NCBI GenBank assembly: GCA_020721085.1
Contig: DYNJ01000006.1
Location: 1 to 34,907, forward strand
Direction: 5' to 3'
Length of the DNA: 34,907 bases
Origin: Sulfurovum sp.
Lineage (GTDB): Bacteria; Campylobacterota; Campylobacteria; Campylobacterales; Sulfurovaceae
Positions 804 through 24,459 of the stretch are shown here, piece after piece. Position 1 is the first letter of the stretch. Each line of letters opens with the position of its first letter. Below the pieces are notes generated by a model that had not been told where the DNA came from, ran no database searches, and saw nothing but the letters and a program-made list of their open reading frames with translations. The position numbers and the translations under genes are program-made.

Positions 804-2255
804 TTAGTTTTCTATATAATGGGTTCCGAGTGATATTTTGCGCCTGAGCGCCGCATCAACGATCGCCGAAGCGGTATTGAGGCGAAGCCGAAGCAAGCGC
901 CCTATCTGCTTGCTTTTCATATCGTATATCATATTTTTGGCTTCATGCAGCCCATTTTTGGTTCGGATGATACCTACATTTTCCCACATCACCTGGCGCA
1001 ATCTGTCCTTATATGCAGCATCATTGTCTTTGTGAAGAATATTACCGTAATCTTCATCAAAGAGAGGTATTTGGCGGGTGTTTTGCTCTTTGCCCATGAT
1101 AAAATCAACCGCGCGCTTGGCAAATACTACACCTTCGAGCAAAGAGTTGGAGGCGAGACGATTTGCCCCATGCACTCCGGTCGAAGCCGCTTCACCGATC
1201 ACATAAAGCCCCTCAATCCCATCGATACAACCGTTCATATCACTCCTGATACCGCCTATTGCATAGTGAAATGCCGGCGATATGGGTACTCTTTGCTGTG
1301 GAAAACGATACCCTAAAGAGGCGAATGTACGCGTAATATTGGGGAATCGCTGATGAAATCTTGCCTCATCAAACATACTGAAATCCAGATATACCTCTTC
1401 ATTTTTGTACTGTCGTTTGTAGTTAAAAATCGCGCGAGACACAATATCTCTTCCCGCCAATTCTCCTCTTTCGTCATAGCCAAAGAGAAATCTTTCGCCT
1501 TTTTCGTTGACTATATGCGCCCCCTCGCCTCTTAGAGCCTCAGTCAGCAAAAGCTTCCTTGCGTATGGAGTCTTGACAAATACGGTGGGGTGGAACTGCA
1601 TCATCTCCATATCGGCGAGTTCAATCCCTTTTTTGACACATATACCATGGATATCAGCGCTTACCGTACGAGAATTTGTATTATACTGATAAAGCGAACC
1701 GACGCCTCCTGAAGCTATGATCACATCATCGGCATAAATCGTGCTGGGTCTATAATTGACAGTTGCCTTCACCCCATAACACCGACCGTTTTCGATCAAC
1801 AGATCATAAACAAGAGTATTTCGCTGAAGTTCATGCTTGTTTTGTACCATCATGAAGTAGTGCATATACCGTCCCGTAGCATCACCGCCGGCATGCACGA
1901 TACGACCGACCGAATGAGCCGCCTCTTTTGTGTAGAGCAGGCGACCTTCTTCGTCTCGGTCGAATTCCATCCCTTTAGCGATAATATCTGCCGTAGTTTC
2001 CAGACTCGTTCGGCTCAGTATCTCGACAGCTTCACGGTTGTTGTGAAATGCGCCGGCCTCAATCGTATCTTGGATATGCAAAGGAATATCATCTTTGTCA
2101 AGAGCCGTTACCATACCGCCTTGCGCATAGAAGGTATTGCACTCCCACGGGACATCTTTGCAAATGACCAAAACCTTTTTGCTTCGCGGCAGATTCATCG
2201 CAGCATAAAGACCGGCGATACCTGCGCCTATAATCAATACATCATATTTTCTCAT
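804..2255 (-). CDS. nadB: L-aspartate oxidase
   Basis: 483 aa; FAD motif GAGIAGLYAA, NTFYAQGGMVTAL, HSVGRIVHAGGDATG, EALRGEGAHIVNEKGERF, GVHGANRLASNSLLEGVVF. Confidence 0.95.
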   Translation of the reverse strand: MRKYDVLIIGAGIAGLYAAMNLPRSKKVLVICKDVPWECNTFYAQGGMVTALDKDDIPLHIQDTIEAGAFHNNREAVEILSRTSLETTADIIAKGMEFDRDEEGRLLYTKEAAHSVGRIVHAGGDATGRYMHYFMMVQNKHELQRNTLVYDLLIENGRCYGVKATVNYRPSTIYADDVIIASGGVGSLYQYNTNSRTVSADIHGICVKKGIELADMEMMQFHPTVFVKTPYARKLLLTEALRGEGAHIVNEKGERFLFGYDERGELAGRDIVSRAIFNYKRQYKNEEVYLDFSMFDEARFHQRFPNITRTFASLGYRFPQQRVPISPAFHYAIGGIRSDMNGCIDGIEGLYVIGEAASTGVHGANRLASNSLLEGVVFAKRAVDFIMGKEQNTRQIPLFDEDYGNILHKDNDAAYKDRLRQVMWENVGIIRTKNGLHEAKNMIYDMKSKQIGRLLRLRLNTASAIVDAALRRKISLGTHYIEN

Positions 2256-15490: not shown

Positions 15491-15960
15491 TCGAGCGCCT
15501 CCAATATCTCATCTATTTTTTGCGGTGTGAGATTTTCATGATACTCTTCATTTATCTGCATCACCGGCGCACTGCCGCATGAACCCAAACATTCCACTTG
15601 AGAAATAGTAAAACGCCCATCTGCCGTAGTCTCTCCTGCCTTGATACCAAGTTTGGCCTGGAGGCGCTCCAGTATCTCGCCCTTTCCGCACAGCGCACAC
15701 GAAAGCGTCTTGCAAAGCTGAATATGATAGGTGCCTACAGGCTCCAGATGAAACATCGTATAAAAAGTAGCGATACGATAGAGTTCCATGCTCGGCAAAT
15801 CACAATACGGAGCGATACAATCGATAGCATCGAGCGTGATCACCCCTTCTTGCTCCTGAACCATCCATAGCAATGGCAATGCCAAAGCATGAGCAGACGG
15901 ATAGCGGCCTTTAAGCTCTTCGATCTGCTCAAGATGTTTTGGCGTCAAAACAAAACTCAT
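15487..15960 (-). CDS. nuoE: NADH-quinone oxidoreductase subunit E
   Basis: 157 aa thioredoxin-like 2Fe-2S subunit; IATFYTMFHLEPVGTYHIQLCKTLSCALCG...VECLGSCGSAPVMQINEEYHENLT. Confidence 0.95.
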   Translation of the reverse strand: MSFVLTPKHLEQIEELKGRYPSAHALALPLLWMVQEQEGVITLDAIDCIAPYCDLPSMELYRIATFYTMFHLEPVGTYHIQLCKTLSCALCGKGEILERLQAKLGIKAGETTADGRFTISQVECLGSCGSAPVMQINEEYHENLTPQKIDEILEALE

Positions 15961-17621
15961 CTATCCATCTCCCCTGCAATAATATTGAGACTTCCCAGTG
16001 TCAAGATCGCATCGCCTACTTGAGAGTTTTCTATGATCTTGGGATAGGCTGCCATATGCAGAAAACTGGGAGGTCTGACTTTGACACGGTACGGCGTACC
16101 GCTGCCGTCAGAAACGATCGTAAAACCAAGCTCGCCGTTTGCAGCTTCGGTAGCGCCGTAAAATTCGCCTTTGGACACTTTGACACCTTCAAAAACCAGT
16201 TTAAACTGATTCATCACCCCTTCAATAGAACCATATACCGCTGATTTGGCAGGAAGCGTGATGCTGTGGTCTTTGATACTGATCTCACCGCCTGGTATTC
16301 GTTTGGCTGCCTGACGGATGATCTTGATACTCTCTTTGATCTCATCGAAGCGGACCATCAGACGGTCATATGTATCACCTACGGCGCCTACCACCATATC
16401 AAAATCAAAAGTATCATAATAGTAGTATGGAGTTGCGAAACGAAGGTCGTATGCCACACCGCTGGCACGGAGATTGGGTCCTGTAAAGCCCAGATCAAGC
16501 GCCCGCTCACCGCTCACCGCAGAAACATTTTGTGTTCGGTCTATGAAAATGCGGTTGTGTTCTATCATGTCAAGCGATTCGCCGACCCCTTTTTCGACGG
16601 AGCGAAGCACACTTTCAAGCTCCGCTTCCCACCCGTTATGAAAGTCATACGCCATACCGCCGATACGCATATAGGAGTTGGTCAGCCGCGCACCCGTAAG
16701 ACGGCTCAGGAAATCATACGCTTCGCCGCGCGGATTGAATAGATACCAATAGTTGGTTTGCGCGCCCATATCCAAAAGTCCTGCAGCCAGACAGACCAGG
16801 TGGTCTATCACTCGTGAAAGCTCGGCAAGTATAACACGGATAAAGATACCGCGATCGGGTATCGTGATACCCATCATATCTTCAACTGCCTTGGCAAAAC
16901 CGATATTGTTCATCAGTGGAGAGCAGTAGTTGAGCCGATCGGTGTAGGGAATGATTTGATTGTAGGTATGATTTTCACACGACTTTTCAAAACCGCGATG
17001 CAGATAGCCGATCTCACTGACTCCTGCCTTGATCTTTTCGCCGTCAAGCGCTACCATCGTTCTTAGAGTGCCGTGGCTGGCGGGGTGAGATGGACCTAGA
17101 TTGAGGATCATCAGATTGTCACGCTGCGCATCAAGACCTTTTTGCTCCAGCAAAGGCGCCATCTCATCCATCAGACTCTGTGCTTGGGTACAGTATTGGC
17201 CTTTGGTGATCTCATAATCCCGTCTCAGCGGATGACCGACAAACTCTTCATGGTTGAGGACGCGTTTGAGGTTTGGATGACCGCCAAAATAGATACCGAA
17301 CTGGTCGAACACCTCTCTTTCCAGCCAATCTGCAGCCTCAAAAATAGAGGTGATAGACGGGATACCTTCATCTATATCATCGACACTTACTTGTATGCTT
17401 ATAACCTTGTCAAAATCGCTGTGGCGCATATGATACATCACCATAAACCGAGCAGACTCTTTTTGGGAAAGTTCGATATAGTCGATACCCGCGATATCAA
17501 GCAGCAGAGTATAGCCATCCTCCTCTTTGAGCGCTTTGATGACCTGCATTAGATCGCTGCTCAAAACCTGATAAACCAGTGTCTGTCCCATATTTTTGAG
17601 TTGCGCCATAGACTCAAGCAT
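15957..17621 (-). CDS. nuoCD: NADH-quinone oxidoreductase fused subunits C/D
   Basis: C part: [39 protein letters not shown] part: [25 protein letters not shown]...GYLHRGFEK. Start at MLESMAQ (17621) with AAAGGA upstream and 8-bp overlap with nuoB. Confidence 0.94.
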
Positions 17622-18132
17622 CAAACTTTCCTTTAAAGTCTTCATGGCGCACTTCGCAGCTCTTTTCGCGCCAAAGCTGCTTTTGGATCGCGACAATAGC
17701 GTCAAGCGCCGCTTCGGGACGAGGCGGACAGCCTGCTACATAGACATCGACGGGAATAATCTCATCAATACCTTGCAAAGTAGTGTAGTTGTCATAAAAA
17801 CCGCCCGAGCAGGCACATGCCCCCATACTGATGACCCATTTAGGCTCAGGCATCTGATCGTAGATCTGCTTGAGGATGGGCGCTTGTTTGTAGCTAATCG
17901 TACCGGCGACCAGAAGAAGATCAGCTTGGCGCGGGGAAAATCGTAACACTTCCGCACCAAACCTAGAGACATCATAGCGGCTCGCAGCGGCAGCCATAAA
18001 TTCTATAGCGCAACACGCTGTGCCAAAGACCATCGGCCACAGCGAGCTTTGACGCCCCCAGTTTATCACTGCATCAAGCCGTGTCGTGATGATCGCATCT
18101 CCCAACAGATGGTCTGTTGCGCTCATGTCCAT
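17614..18132 (-). CDS. nuoB: NADH-quinone oxidoreductase subunit B
   Basis: 172 aa; [88 protein letters not shown]. Confidence 0.97.
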
Positions 18133-18482
18133 TTGAGTACTCCTGATTTATATACATAAAAAAGTCCCGCGACAAGCAATCCCATGAAGACAAACATCTC
18201 CATCATCCCAAAAAAACCAAGCTCTCGGAGGTTTAGCGCCCATGGAAACATAAAAAGTATCTCTACATCAAAGAGTAAAAAGATAATTCCGACGGTATAG
18301 AATTTGATATTGAAACTCTCAAGCGGATCTTTGTGTGTAAGCCGAATTCCGCTCTCATATGATTCATTTTTGCGCTCATTGTCACTGAATGCACCCAAAT
18401 AGCGGGTAAAATGGAAGGCGACCGGCAACGCGATCACCAAAACAGCGATAACCGCCGATGCAAGTGCCAAATTACTAACCAA
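18123..18482 (-). CDS. nuoA: NADH-quinone oxidoreductase subunit A
   Basis: 119 aa; [44 protein letters not shown] start with AAGGG 8 nt upstream. Confidence 0.93.
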
Positions 18483-18671: not shown

Positions 18672-18677
18672 TATAAT
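18672..18677 (+). promoter_or_regulatory. candidate -10 box for the PAS/Hpt/kinase operon
   Basis: TATAAT ~40 bp upstream of the structured leader; no clear -35 at standard spacing. Confidence 0.35.
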
Positions 18678-18712
18678 TATAAACTCTATACTATATGAAG
18701 ATAAGTTTTATC

Positions 18713-18823
18713 TATTAAGTAAGCCAGACTTGTTGTGAAGCAGGGTCGGAAAACTATGGGTCTTGGGATATCAAGATCGCCAGGTTGCAAATCCCGGTTT
18801 TTCATAATTAAATGATTACTTAA
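18713..18823 (+). ncRNA. structured 5' leader, candidate GEMM-I-like (c-di-GMP-I) riboswitch
   Basis: Bounded by perfect 9-bp inverted repeat ATTAAGTAA (18713-18721)/TTACTTAAT (18815-18823). Hairpin CUUGUU-GUGA-AGCAGG with a GNRA tetraloop, then GGGUCGGAAAACUAUGGGUC, 7-bp hairpin GGUCUUG-GGAUAU-CAAGAUC, then GCCAGGUUGC. Resembles the GEMM-I order: GNRA hairpin, GGGACGCAAAGCC, P3, GCCGGGUUGCC. The 5' part fits poorly. Confidence 0.5.
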
Positions 18824-18841
18824 TACAATTAAAACAGATGA

Positions 18842-19285
18842 ATGAAAAGGTATGTATCAATTATGGAAAAATCAACTCCTGTAGATGAAAAGTATATTTT
18901 TGACGATGGGGTCATCGTGAGTGAAACTGACCTAAAGGGGATCATCACTTACTCTAATCGAAAATTTTGTGAAATAGCGGGATACGACAAAAAAGAGCTG
19001 CAAGGCAAAAATCACAATATTATCCGCCACCCGGATATGCCAAAGATCGCCTTTAAGGGTCTTTGGGAAACCATCCAGAGTGGTCAAAACTGGAGCGGTG
19101 TCGTCAAAAATCTTCGTAAAGACGGGCGTTATTATTGGGTGCATAGCTATATCACTTTAGCATTCAAAAACAATGAGCATGTCGGATATATTGCGGCACG
19201 CAGACCTGCAAGCAAATTGGAGATCGAAGAGGCGGAAAGCTTATATGCAAAGCTTTTAGAGGCAGAAAACCAGGTCAAGGAGTAA
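18842..19285 (+). CDS. Aer/CetB-like PAS-domain sensor protein
   Basis: 147 aa; VDEKYIFDDGVIVSETDLKGIITYSNRKFCEIAGYDKKELQGKNHNIIRHPDMPKIAFKGLWETIQSGQNWSGVVKNLRKDGRYYWV (HPDMP motif typical of Aer-like PAS). Real start may be ATG at 18863. Confidence 0.88.
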   Translation: MKRYVSIMEKSTPVDEKYIFDDGVIVSETDLKGIITYSNRKFCEIAGYDKKELQGKNHNIIRHPDMPKIAFKGLWETIQSGQNWSGVVKNLRKDGRYYWVHSYITLAFKNNEHVGYIAARRPASKLEIEEAESLYAKLLEAENQVKE

Positions 19286-19289
19286 GAAA

Positions 19290-20909
19290 ATGTACTATAT
19301 TGTCAATCTTGACAAACAAATCGTTGGAGCAGATAACGAATTTTTGAATCTAGCAGAAACTGATAACCTGCAGCATCTGTTCAAGCAGACGATAAATGGC
19401 ATGATTCAACTGCATACAACAAGTCATGATACCATAGAGATGATCACGCCAACTCAAACATTAATACTTCAAACATCCATCCATCCAATGATGACTATAA
19501 TGGGTGAACTCATGCTGGTTCAGATCGAAAAGGCGGAGATCGGAATGCATTCTGCGATTCGTCAAGAAGATATAGGTATAGTCGATATCAAAGAAGACGA
19601 ATCCTCGCCTATCCTTCTTGCGGAGCCAGCAGAGGAGGAGATCCAATTCAAAACAGACAATGAAGAGATTTTGCATGATTATCATACGGATACGATTTGG
19701 CTTGCCATAGAGCCGGAAGCACAAATCAGTACTATCAGTGAAGAAGTCGTGCCGCTATCAGGACATTTAGAAGATCAGCCGCATATAGACGACTCTTTTG
19801 CAGAGCCTCAAGAAGAGGAGTTCCAACTCAAGCAAGAGGAAGAGAAAAGCACCAAAGATAACTATACCGATATTGTCAAGCCGGTCAAGGAGCCAGAGGA
19901 AGCGGACAAAACCGCACATGAAGAGCTAATACCGCTACTGGAGAATTTAGAAGTGCATACAGCGGATGACTCTTTTGTAGACCTCCGTAGCAATGAAGAG
20001 CTATTGCAAAGCTCTGAAATACTGGCTGAAACCCGACTGCATAACGAAGCAGATGAGACTCCGATACTGATCCTTGAGAAGGAAGAGCCTTCGGCTACGC
20101 AAGAAATAAAGCCTGATAATTTGTCATCTGACGATCTCTTGCCTTTGTCTGCAGATATCAATTGGGTGATCGATATAGAACATAATAGTTATCTATTGGG
20201 TATTTCCAAAGAAGATTATGTTGATTTTTTGAATGAATTTATTGATAAAGCAATTGACCTGCAATCAGACATACTAGACAAAAATGGTCATGAACAGCAA
20301 AAAATCTTTATGTCACTCAAAAAAATGGCCGAAATTCTTCATCTGCCCGCCATGCCGGATCTTCTGGAACGCATCATTCAAAGAGATGCAAATAAACTGG
20401 ATTTTTATCTTCAAGAATTCTATGGTGGTCTTAAAAGGCTAACAACACATACAACAAAAAGACAAATTCAACCTTCAGCTGCAACAGAAGAGCCGGCGGC
20501 TCGAACACCTATCGAAGAGGTTGCGCCTGAAGCAGTTCATGCAGAATCTATCTGTGATCTCGATCTGAGCCAAGTCAAGCCGATCCATTTTGATTTTAGT
20601 CCAAAAGAGGCCGCAGCAGATCTAGGTCTTCCTACAGAGTTGGTATATGAATTTTTCAATGACTTCATCCATCAAGCCAATGTCGAAAATGCGACCTTTA
20701 TAAACGCATGCAAAAAAGGCGATGTTGATACTATTCACAAAACAGGACACAAGCTCAAAGGCGCAGCTAGCAACCTTAGGATCAGACCGCTTGCCGCCAC
20801 TTTGGAAGAGATTCAATATTGTCAAGACAATTCCCGTTTTGAACCTTTGCTCAAGAAATACTGGGGACAATTATTGGCATTTGGGCTCTTTATAAAAAAC
20901 AAATCTTAA
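19290..20909 (+). CDS. Hpt-domain phosphotransfer protein with acidic repeat linker and a second, degenerate Hpt-like domain
   Basis: 539 aa; C-terminal Hpt motif HKTGHKLKGAASNLRIRPLA (HxLKG at His487); central Glu-rich repeats; residues ~299-384 resemble the C-terminal Hpt but lack the His. Confidence 0.75.
   Translation: MYYIVNLDKQIVGADNEFLNLAETDNLQHLFKQTINGMIQLHTTSHDTIEMITPTQTLILQTSIHPMMTIMGELMLVQIEKAEIGMHSAIRQEDIGIVDIKEDESSPILLAEPAEEEIQFKTDNEEILHDYHTDTIWLAIEPEAQISTISEEVVPLSGHLEDQPHIDDSFAEPQEEEFQLKQEEEKSTKDNYTDIVKPVKEPEEADKTAHEELIPLLENLEVHTADDSFVDLRSNEELLQSSEILAETRLHNEADETPILILEKEEPSATQEIKPDNLSSDDLLPLSADINWVIDIEHNSYLLGISKEDYVDFLNEFIDKAIDLQSDILDKNGHEQQKIFMSLKKMAEILHLPAMPDLLERIIQRDANKLDFYLQEFYGGLKRLTTHTTKRQIQPSAATEEPAARTPIEEVAPEAVHAESICDLDLSQVKPIHFDFSPKEAAADLGLPTELVYEFFNDFIHQANVENATFINACKKGDVDTIHKTGHKLKGAASNLRIRPLAATLEEIQYCQDNSRFEPLLKKYWGQLLAFGLFIKNKS
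19620..19976 (+). repeat. degenerate tandem repeat (about 2 units of ~60 codons)
   Basis: Unit 1 AEPAEEEIQFK...YHTD...EPEAQ...EEVVPLSGHLE...DDSF and unit 2 AEPQEEEFQLK...NYTD...EPEEA...EELIPLLENLE...DDSF. Confidence 0.65.
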
Positions 20910-20929: not shown

Positions 20930-23900
20930 ATGACTATTCGAAATAGACTTAAACTGATCGGCTTGGTTCCGATTATTCTGTTGTTTTTGCTATCAAGCTA
21001 CTTTTTGGTAACATCGTATCAAAGTTTTGAAAAAGCAAATGCACTCAAAACAGTCTTAAACAACAATGCGGTTTTGAACGATGTCCTTGTTCAGACAGGT
21101 AAAGAACGGGGTTTGACAGCTCTTTATATCGGATCAGGCCGCAAAAACTTTGCAGATCCTCTCAAAAAACAAAGAACTGAGCTAGATGCTTCAATACAGA
21201 AGCTTCAAACAAGTCTCCAGACCGAAGCCAAAGCGCTTTTGCCTTTCCTTCCGGGCATATCAAATATTATCGATACCGAAAAATACCAAATGCTTCTGAA
21301 CAATATAGGCACTCTTCCAAATATCAGAAGCAAAGTTGATGATGCAAGCGCTGTATTTACTAATATATTTTTTGACGGTTATACTAAGTCAATCGCAACA
21401 CCGACCTTGAGCAATCTTCTACAGACACAAAATTTTGCATTGGATACCGAACTCTCTTCGTTGATCATGACGCTGAGTCAGATTGATATCGCCAAAGAAA
21501 ACACAGGCCTAGAAAGAGGTTTTGTATCCTACTTTATAACCAAAAAAATTTCGATGTCTTTTGAAGAAATGGCTCTTTGGGACAGCTTCAAAACCAAGGC
21601 CAACGGATTTGATCCTTTAAATATTGGAGACAAAGAGATCTCCGGCAAGATTGCCGGGCTTTACGGTGAAGAAGAGAACAAAATGATGCTCTCCGGTCTT
21701 GCAGAAACCTCATCTGCCATTCAAACCGATGTCGACAATGGTGACTACACAGAAGATCCGATAGATTGGTTTACTCTGCAGACCAAAAAAATCACATTGC
21801 TCTCCAAGGCGCAAACTATTGTCGCAAGCAAGCTCTGGGATAAGTCTACAGCTTATCTAAATATGCAGATTGCAATACTTGCGATCTCTTTTTTGATCTG
21901 GCTACTCTCGATTATTCTTGCATATTTAGGCTACTCAACCGTCAAAGATATCACCAATAATATCAAGGAGCTCGAAAGCGTAATCAACCATGCTGTTGAT
22001 GAGATGAAAATGAGCGATAAATATATCTCGTCTGATACAGCATTGATTGAAAATATTGACCTTGACACGCATGAAGGGACAAAAACAGCTTATAGATTTT
22101 TGGAAAAACTAGTCGAAGTTGCCAAAGAGGATAAACAAACAGCCCTTCATGCAAACGAAGCAAAATCTCTCTTTTTGGCAAATATGTCGCATGAGATCCG
22201 TACACCTCTAAACGGAATTGTCGGCTTTACAGAGCTGCTCAAGACCACAAGCCTTGATGATGAACAGCAAGAGTTTCTGTCAATTATTTCAAAAAGTTCC
22301 GAAAACCTTCTGAGCATCATCAATAATATCCTTGACCTCTCCAAAGTAGAGAGCAAAAAGGTTGAAATAGAAAGTATAGTATTTGATGCGGAAGAGGAGT
22401 TTGAGAGCACTATTGAAACCTATGGTGTAAGTGCTGCGGAGAAAAATATAAATCTCAACTTCTTTATGGATCCTACCATCAGCAAAAAACTAAAAGGTGA
22501 TCCGACCAAGATCAAAGAGGTATTGATAAATCTTTTGAGCAATGCAATCAAGTTTACCAGCTACGGCGGTGAAGTCAATCTTGAGATCAAAAAAATTGAG
22601 GGAGATAACGGTACGAATAGTAAGATTCTATTTAGAGTACAAGACAACGGTATCGGTATGACCAAAGATCAACAATCAAGAATCTTTGAGGCATTTTCAC
22701 AGGCAGACATCTCTGTAACAAGAAAGTATGGCGGCACGGGTCTTGGATTGACGCTTTCTAAACAGTTTGTAGAATTGATGGGTGGACATTTGGATCTCGA
22801 AAGTGCCAAAGATCTCGGTACTACCTTCTTTTTTAGCTTGCCTCTAGAGGAAGTTGCATCCACTGATACTGATCTTTTTAATCGATTTACCGCACTCACG
22901 ATCGGAAAATATCAACAAGAGATCCCGACCAAGCTTGACACCTATTTAGAACAATACTTTGGCTATTTCGGTACCAATGTAAAGCATTTCGAATCAGTCG
23001 GTGAACTCAAAGATCTTAAAGATAGCGGCGTGTGCCAAAATTATTGGATCGATATTGACAAAACCAAACAAAATATTATCGATTCACTACCCAACATCAG
23101 CAGTTCTAAGCTCATCATTATCGCCAATGTGACAAGCAGAAGCAAGATCGAGGCATTAGGCAATATTAAACAAGACAACATTATATACAAGCCGGTTACC
23201 TCAACCAAGATCAAAGAGATGCTCTTTAGGAGTATTAATATTGCTCCGACAATAGAAAAAGATATCGTTTTGCAGGAAGGCGAAGATCGGTTTGACGCCA
23301 AGGTACTTGTCGCAGAAGACAACATCATCAACCAAAAACTTATTCGCCGTATCCTTGAAGGCTATGGGTTAACAATCGAGATCGCAAATAATGGTCTTGA
23401 GGCATTTGAAAAAAGAAGAAATGGTGATTATGACCTTATCTTTATGGATATTCAAATGCCTGTAATGGACGGTATTGAAGCTTCTAAAGAGATACTTGAC
23501 TACGAAGAGGATGAAGAGTTGCATCATGTCCCGATCGTTGCACTGACAGCCAACGCTCTCAAGGGAGATAGAGAGAGGTTCTTAAATGAAGGAATGGATG
23601 ATTATGTTGCCAAGCCGCTTGAAGTTTCAGAGCTCCTAATTATTCTCAACAAATACCTTAAAAACAAGTCACCTGATAGACCCTTTGTCACTCCGATAGC
23701 AGATGAAATGGTAACGGACAAAATGGAAAAATCTATCGAAACCCCAATAGCTCATGAAGAGGCTATAGACAGTGACGCACATCAAGTCAAAAAGATTTTG
23801 ATCGCAACATACTCTCTTTTTGAAAATCGCCTATTGGAAAAAATGATCCGCAACCTAGGATATAAATTTGACACACTTGACGAATCTTCAGACGCTCAAA

Positions 23901-24100
23901 TACATATAGAGTCTGGCGAGTATGATATAATTATTGCCGGAGATGATATTGAACTCGCAGATTCAACTGTATCACAATATAAAGTGGCTAAAATTGAGCT
24001 TTCAGACACAAAAGACAATGATAGATCTATACAATTATCCGATCTCTCCAAGGAGAAGTTGGAGCAAATGATCAATAACCTTAGAGGATATGAAAGATGA
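20930..24100 (+). CDS. NIT-domain hybrid sensor histidine kinase with receiver domain(s)
   Basis: 1056 aa; N-terminal TM, NIT-like GKERGLTALYIGSGRKNF...LKKQRTELDASI, second TM ~310-340, HisKA LFLANMSHEIRTPLNGIVGF, HATPase LLSNAIKFTS/DNGIGM/GGTGLGL, REC VLVAEDNIINQKLIRRIL...DLIFMDIQMPVMDGIEA...ALTANALKGD...DYVAKPL. Confidence 0.93.
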   Translation: MTIRNRLKLIGLVPIILLFLLSSYFLVTSYQSFEKANALKTVLNNNAVLNDVLVQTGKERGLTALYIGSGRKNFADPLKKQRTELDASIQKLQTSLQTEAKALLPFLPGISNIIDTEKYQMLLNNIGTLPNIRSKVDDASAVFTNIFFDGYTKSIATPTLSNLLQTQNFALDTELSSLIMTLSQIDIAKENTGLERGFVSYFITKKISMSFEEMALWDSFKTKANGFDPLNIGDKEISGKIAGLYGEEENKMMLSGLAETSSAIQTDVDNGDYTEDPIDWFTLQTKKITLLSKAQTIVASKLWDKSTAYLNMQIAILAISFLIWLLSIILAYLGYSTVKDITNNIKELESVINHAVDEMKMSDKYISSDTALIENIDLDTHEGTKTAYRFLEKLVEVAKEDKQTALHANEAKSLFLANMSHEIRTPLNGIVGFTELLKTTSLDDEQQEFLSIISKSSENLLSIINNILDLSKVESKKVEIESIVFDAEEEFESTIETYGVSAAEKNINLNFFMDPTISKKLKGDPTKIKEVLINLLSNAIKFTSYGGEVNLEIKKIEGDNGTNSKILFRVQDNGIGMTKDQQSRIFEAFSQADISVTRKYGGTGLGLTLSKQFVELMGGHLDLESAKDLGTTFFFSLPLEEVASTDTDLFNRFTALTIGKYQQEIPTKLDTYLEQYFGYFGTNVKHFESVGELKDLKDSGVCQNYWIDIDKTKQNIIDSLPNISSSKLIIIANVTSRSKIEALGNIKQDNIIYKPVTSTKIKEMLFRSINIAPTIEKDIVLQEGEDRFDAKVLVAEDNIINQKLIRRILEGYGLTIEIANNGLEAFEKRRNGDYDLIFMDIQMPVMDGIEASKEILDYEEDEELHHVPIVALTANALKGDRERFLNEGMDDYVAKPLEVSELLIILNKYLKNKSPDRPFVTPIADEMVTDKMEKSIETPIAHEEAIDSDAHQVKKILIATYSLFENRLLEKMIRNLGYKFDTLDESSDAQIHIESGEYDIIIAGDDIELADSTVSQYKVAKIELSDTKDNDRSIQLSDLSKEKLEQMINNLRGYER

Positions 24101-24459
24101 ATGTTTTGATCGTAGATGATGATATGATCAACAGAATGCTCATAAGAACTCTCTTGCGAAAAAATCCTAAAATCACAGGGATTGTAGAGGCAGAAAATGG
24201 ATCCGAAGCATTAGAGAAGATTAAAAGTCAAGGGAATATTGATCTGGTGCTGCTTGATGTAATGATGCCGATCCTCAATGGTATAGAGTTTCTCAAAATA
24301 TTCCGTGCCAATATGGCATATGCGCATATTCCTGTCATTGTATTGACAACAGACGATACGCGCAAAACAGAAGTTTTTACGAATGGAGCCAATGACTTCC
24401 TTCGAAAACCCATAATGGAAAAAGACCTCACCGGTAAAATCGACCTGTGGTCGGCATAG
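24097..24459 (+). CDS. stand-alone response regulator receiver (CheY-like)
   Basis: 120 aa; MNVLIVDDDMINRMLIRTLL...LVLLDVMMPILNGIEFLK...VLTTDDTR...GANDFLRKPI. ATGA overlap with the kinase gene. Confidence 0.92.
   Translation: MNVLIVDDDMINRMLIRTLLRKNPKITGIVEAENGSEALEKIKSQGNIDLVLLDVMMPILNGIEFLKIFRANMAYAHIPVIVLTTDDTRKTEVFTNGANDFLRKPIMEKDLTGKIDLWSA

Follow-up and report, generated by a model that had tools for sequence, protein, structure and literature searches.

Does the leader of a phosphorelay operon in Sulfurovum sp. contain a riboswitch and, if so, of which class, for which ligand and with what effect on the genes that follow? The segment in question, 18713-18823, is part of a 34,907-nt stretch of DNA that we analysed as a whole (the window). 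It sits in a 359-nt gap between a minus-strand nuo gene (nuoA-like, 18123-18482) and a plus-strand operon, and an initial annotation had described it as a divergent GEMM-I riboswitch, or a new structured RNA, controlling that operon. On the nuo side, we also noted a NuoC-NuoD fusion in which the 30-kDa and 49-kDa complex I subunits are joined in one 582-aa ORF (15957-17705, minus strand) of this Campylobacterota nuo operon.

Identity of the leader RNA and the operon it precedes

When the whole window was searched with cmscan, 18713-18792 (plus strand) matched RF01051 at 54.2 bits (E 4.4e-8), 19 bits above the gathering score of 35, with a full-length alignment (model 1-87) that contained no non-standard pairs; no other Rfam family exceeded its own gathering score. 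A model built from the lineage scored the same segment at 76.9 bits (E 9e-17; second-best match in the window, E 0.84), with the window aptamer among its 28 training sequences. A check against the two c-di-GMP models, as the initial annotation had suggested, gave a match above the cut-off for RF01051 and none up to E 1 for RF01786 (c-di-GMP-II), which rules out the latter identity. The c-di-GMP-I-GGC family (RF03167) overlapped the RF01051 site in a short search that retained the match, but its 47.4 bits fell short of the family's gathering score (59), and at position 47 the consensus G is an A in the window. A weak match to Yfr8 (E 0.61, under the cut-off) was set aside. Because the RF01051 score exceeds the Rfam cut-off, a new RNA class is ruled out, and the description of the RNA as divergent was dropped as well, given the margin and a 5´ part that is typical of Sulfurovaceae. 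By each decisive computational test, the window aptamer is an ordinary RF01051 member. Taking together the Rfam score, the domains encoded by the operon and the leaders of orthologous operons, we consider the original assignment to be right in its main point and put the probability at roughly 0.93 that 18713-18792 is a c-di-GMP-I (GEMM-I) riboswitch of the downstream phosphorelay operon. The remainder of 18713-18823 is its predicted expression platform.

The features of the leader and operon are collected in Table 1. For the first gene, ATG 18863 is the more likely start over ATG 18842, since the alignment with relatives begins no earlier than residue 8 or 9 of the ORF as listed. The aptamer ends 70 nt before this likely start, has a TATAAT upstream and occupies the same leader position in 11 relatives. 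The reported Campylobacterota -10 motif is gnTAnaAT (PMC3847290). With the predicted start near 18684 lying ahead of 18713, none of the three results that the initial annotation had listed as refuting was encountered.

Table 1. Positions of leader elements, predicted ligand-contacting bases and operon genes in the window
Feature	Position	Strand	Basis
Candidate -10 box TATAAT; predicted transcript start ahead of the aptamer, near 18684	18672..18677	+	sequence
Predicted c-di-GMP-I (GEMM-I) riboswitch aptamer	18713..18792	+	RF01051, lineage-built model, covariation in 44 relatives
Putative outer stem, 5´ arm, 10 bp, overlapping J1/2 and the 5´ strand of P1	18713..18722	+	perfect inverted repeat
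G corresponding to Vc2 G20, where cGAMP-sensing GEMM-Ib has A	18723	+	G in 44/44 aptamers
P2: CC/GG, 3x3 internal loop, six-pair stem, GUGA (GNRA) tetraloop 18735-18738	18724..18749	+	RF01051 alignment, covariation
A corresponding to Vc2 A47, which stacks between the ligand bases	18750	+	A in 44/44; matches A41 in PMC6274999
P3 with closing strand AACU / GGUU and variable CUUG..CAAG hairpin	18752..18786	+	RF01051 alignment, covariation
Predicted ligand-pairing C, corresponding to Vc2 C92 and to C75 in the cGAMP aptamer	18788	+	C in 44/44
Putative outer stem, 3´ arm (UUACUUAAUA)	18816..18825	+	perfect inverted repeat
Likely Shine-Dalgarno AAAAGG for start 18863	18845..18850	+	sequence; relatives have AAGGGG in this position
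First gene, single-domain PAS protein	18863..19285	+	PF08447
Hpt-domain protein	19290..20909	+	PF01627, slightly under cut-off; position conserved among relatives
Hybrid histidine kinase: NIT sensor, HisKA, HATPase, receiver	20930..24100	+	PF08376, PF00512, PF02518, PF00072
Single-domain response regulator	24097..24459	+	PF00072

Structure and predicted ligand of the aptamer

Covariation among homologous aptamers, another check that had been proposed at the outset, was found in 12 of the 18 modelled pairs, which changed on both sides across 44 aligned sequences; the pairs concerned include five of the six in the P2 stem and six of the ten in P3. In this alignment, which was fitted to the structure and with which a separate MAFFT alignment of 28 sequences agrees, 98.9% of cells were paired, and the covariation score was 0.517, compared with 0.266 after shuffling and at most 0.181 when partners were slid. 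The GNRA-capped hairpin of the initial annotation was located at 18729-18744, with the GUGA tetraloop closing P2, and the CUUG/CAAG hairpin and GCCAGGUUGC are both present in the sequence. The GCCAGA that precedes P2 had been read as extra and as a misfit to GEMM; since AAAGCCAAAC...GGACGGAAAGCC is the standard 5´ form among the aligned Sulfurovaceae aptamers, we regard it as mainly typical of the lineage. The P1 that had been drawn, GUAA/UUGC, did not hold up: the UU of UUGC (18785-18786) pairs with AA 18752-18753 to close P3, and the C (18788) is the predicted partner of the ligand. The probable P1 is short, with three A-U pairs in the window (18714-18716/18790-18792), corresponding to three of the four in columns 2-5/105-108, where support was modest: 50.6% of cells were paired across the aptamer set versus 30-45% at most slides.

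Two bases are unusual. Position 18727 is A in 42 of the 44 aptamers and 18746 is A in 40, while the G and U found there in the window are each unique to it; both changes could lower ligand affinity. They lie opposite one another in the internal loop of P2, where a G-U pair between them is possible.

The three bases expected to determine the ligand are kept: positions 18723, 18750 and 18788, which we take to be G20, A47 and C92 in Vc2 numbering, are invariant in all 44 aptamers. The register of 18723 was verified against C15-G40 of P2, A14 and A41 in the solved cGAMP aptamer, in which A41 is the junction base and J1/3 contains G74-C75 (PMC6274999). In the c-di-GMP aptamer, a G20A mutation allows cGAMP to bind (PMC7288161). 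Given this shift and the invariance of the three bases, c-di-GMP, rather than cGAMP, is the predicted ligand.

We also examined the c-di-GMP machinery of the source genome, which has eight GGDEF and six EAL domain matches. All five intact GGDEF domains carry GHxxGD, the canonical c-di-GMP type, and none of the five, in an assembly that is 87% complete, has the D-to-S change at D344 that marks Hypr cGAMP synthases (PMC7288161). These observations bear on whether the RNA might instead be a GEMM-Ib riboswitch, with the same fold and 3',3'-cGAMP as its ligand. The fold is common to both classes, and C21-G46 at the base of P2 in the window resembles C15-G40 in P2 of the cGAMP aptamer (PMC6274999); however, the class-separating base is G, not A, in the window and in 44/44 relatives, and with the GGDEF domains lacking the Hypr change we consider a cGAMP sensor highly improbable. 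No PilZ domain was matched in the source genome at the same 87% completeness, and RNA may be a main c-di-GMP reader there.

Occurrence ahead of orthologous operons

A search with RF01051 in 99 related genomes detected GEMM-I in 33, the highest copy number being 13. In the Sulfurovaceae, a sulfur-oxidising group related to Campylobacter, RNA probably serves as a c-di-GMP reader at up to that many places per genome. Some relatives carry tandem aptamers, two or three in series (G002:C204:1177-1460; G039:C1:356375-356583; G049:C465:4809-5036), and at L008 a divergent promoter region holds a back-to-back pair of aptamers, one facing each way (1253-1328, minus strand; 1501-1589, plus strand). The source genome (G000) has a second GEMM-I at C19:4085-4159 (L004) and a third at C81:2067-2115 (L005), the latter under the Rfam cut-off and interrupted by an assembly gap; we ruled out that this short match is half a riboswitch, its 3´ half being a run of N. 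The genes after these two aptamers look exported, one encoding a large secreted repeat-type protein and the other a lipoprotein-like protein. At L021, GEMM-I precedes what by sequence is an unrelated-looking histidine-kinase-type protein, and given this locus too, signalling genes may be a recurring GEMM-I target.

To the PAS-protein query, the scanned genome contigs yielded 80 loci, about 33 of which, mainly in Sulfurovaceae, show the same gene arrangement with the kinase downstream. At ten loci (L037, L039, L040, L041, L044, L051, L052, L055, L057 and L060) a same-strand GEMM-I lies just upstream of the PAS gene. These ten leaders all exceed the Rfam cut-offs and score 70-83 bits with the lineage-built model, in whose training the window aptamer was used and none of the ten was. 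With G022, eleven other genomes have GEMM-I in this leader, and the conservation ahead of orthologous PAS/Hpt operons that the initial annotation had named as a point to check is therefore found. In the riboswitch-bearing relatives, the aptamer is preceded by a conserved promoter-like stretch, TTTTTAGTTTAATTGTTATAAAGTTTTAG, which in operons without the riboswitch lies near the start codon.

Many orthologous operons lack GEMM-I, including the nearest kin of the window (L036 and L063) and the same-genus operons examined (L125-L128 and L132). On a tree of the PAS, kinase and receiver sequences, the trait required four changes, compared with 9.7 in shuffles. Together, the absence from the nearest kin and the four changes lead us to conclude that the association between GEMM-I and the operon is real, yet was gained or lost several times. 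Such a pattern also invites the view that the window aptamer is a decayed or non-regulatory copy carried passively in the leader: its closest operons (L036, L063 and L125) have no GEMM-I, and two otherwise near-invariant bases are altered. All 18 modelled pairs are nevertheless standard in the window aptamer and the three ligand bases are retained, and we think decay very unlikely.

Expression platform, direction of control and relation to known riboswitches

We next consider how a c-di-GMP-I riboswitch could act on this operon. The inverted repeat around the aptamer is perfect, as had been noted, though 10 bp long (18713-18722/18816-18825) rather than 9 bp. In dinucleotide-preserving shuffles of 18690-18862, perfect repeats of at least 9 bp occurred in 5.7% and of at least 10 bp in 1.6%, so the repeat alone is only modestly surprising; a 10-bp complement between the 5´ flank of the aptamer and the post-aptamer leader was seen in 0 of 300 leader shuffles. 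No comparable outer stem was found in the 11 relatives. P2 and P3 can form alongside the outer stem; P1 competes with it, and junction bases 18718-18722 are paired within it. The earlier statement that P1 and the outer stem exclude each other accordingly stands for the short P1 placed here, with the junction buried, and not for the P1 then proposed. As a perfect 10-bp stem that would bury ligand-junction bases, it is the best candidate for the switch in the window.

Energy models placed the aptamer fold approximately level with the best fold for a transcript ending at 18792. For a transcript extended to 18820, the best fold, in which the outer stem is joined by pairing of the P2 loop strand with 18793-18808, was about 7 kcal/mol under the aptamer fold (5.5-6.9 kcal/mol below it for the competing fold). 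The near-equal folds at 18792 and the gap by 18820 would leave a time window for ligand action. In the mechanism we favour, c-di-GMP would bind the junction of P2, P3 and the short P1, as family membership predicts. Without ligand, the full leader is modelled to fold into the competing structure, which would bury the ligand junction and the P2 strand; bound ligand would exclude this structure and expose the ribosome-binding site, turning the operon ON by translation and not by an intrinsic terminator, with the likely effect that c-di-GMP sets the amount of phosphorelay.

In the window leader, the modelled unpaired fraction of the Shine-Dalgarno sequence was 0.60 with the aptamer and 0.41 without it, while shuffles gave a change of +0.02 (sd 0.10). 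The change had no consistent sign across 12 leaders, and a direction read from exposure in bound versus free ensembles was set aside for this reason. Because the sign varies and the outer stem is absent from the 11 relatives, we can only infer platform and direction, and ON by translation is a weakly held preference for the window operon, its odds only slightly above even. The fuller proposal, in which a long-range stem that buries ligand junction J1/2 gates ribosome access and tunes phosphorelay dose, with the riboswitch repeatedly gained or lost ahead of the same operon in Sulfurovaceae, is speculative, and we would not expect it to hold in every part.

The opposite direction is conceivable, if the less favoured one: on ligand binding, a released strand (in the window UUUUUCAU and in relatives CUUCUU) would pair with the Shine-Dalgarno sequence, and c-di-GMP would repress the operon. 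The pairings UUUUUCAU/AUGAAAAG in the window and CUUCUU/AAGGGG in relatives are possible, and exposure drops when the aptamer forms in L041, L039 and L060, whereas in the window it rises and the pairing with the Shine-Dalgarno sequence is within the range of leader shuffles (155/500). A conserved anti-P2 or anti-Shine-Dalgarno strand (CACUUCUU in relatives, UUUUUCAU in the window) was also tried and rejected, its hybridisation energies being unconvincing against leader shuffles (32/500 for P2 and 155/500 for the Shine-Dalgarno sequence in the window; 76-453/500 for the others).

Compared with either translational scheme, transcriptional attenuation appears improbable. Here a terminator (GCCAGG..CCCGG or UUGGGAU/AUCCCGG, then U5) would form unless c-di-GMP holds the 3´ strand of the aptamer, as in the cGAMP pilM switch, where the terminator takes the ligand-pairing C (PMC9262584). 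Besides this precedent, U5 at 18798-18802 follows CCCGG, and GCCAGG/CCCGG can pair with one mismatch. Against it, a terminator scan found no intrinsic terminator, the stems are short and interrupted, and the T5 run, the only clear terminator-like part, has no counterpart of five or more after the aptamer in any relative. The UUGGGAU/AUCCCGG hairpin of the initial annotation, and the role given to it as a riboswitch expression platform, thus found no support in the scan or in the relatives, and translational control of the operon remains our preference.

We found no published account of GEMM riboswitches in Epsilonproteobacteria, a weak form of evidence given the many subscription papers outside the search, nor one of GEMM-I in this operon context or lineage (Sulfurovum-type, sulfur-oxidising). 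For C. jejuni, a study of Campylobacter and Helicobacter reported no metabolite riboswitch beyond TPP (PMC3847290). The riboswitch belongs to a known kind, and its setting is of moderate interest; it would tie c-di-GMP to a conserved phosphorelay and offers an entry point for experiments.

Among known systems, c-di-GMP-II (RF01786) has in common with the window its predicted ligand and not a model match. The c-di-GMP-I-GGC family belongs to the same clan as RF01051 and overlaps it here at a score below its own threshold. The GEMM-Ib cGAMP riboswitches of Geobacter (pilM, Gs1761) share the fold and C21-G46 with the window but have A at position 20, where the window has G, and no Hypr GGDEF was seen in the source genome. 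Closest is RF01051 (c-di-GMP-I) itself, with which the window has in common P2 with its GNRA loop, P3, G20/A47/C92 and a predicted position in the 5´ leader. The window differs in the base of P2, which is GC/GC in RF01051 and CC/GG here, as is typical of Sulfurovaceae, in its weak 3-bp P1, and in G18727 and U18746, unique among the 44.
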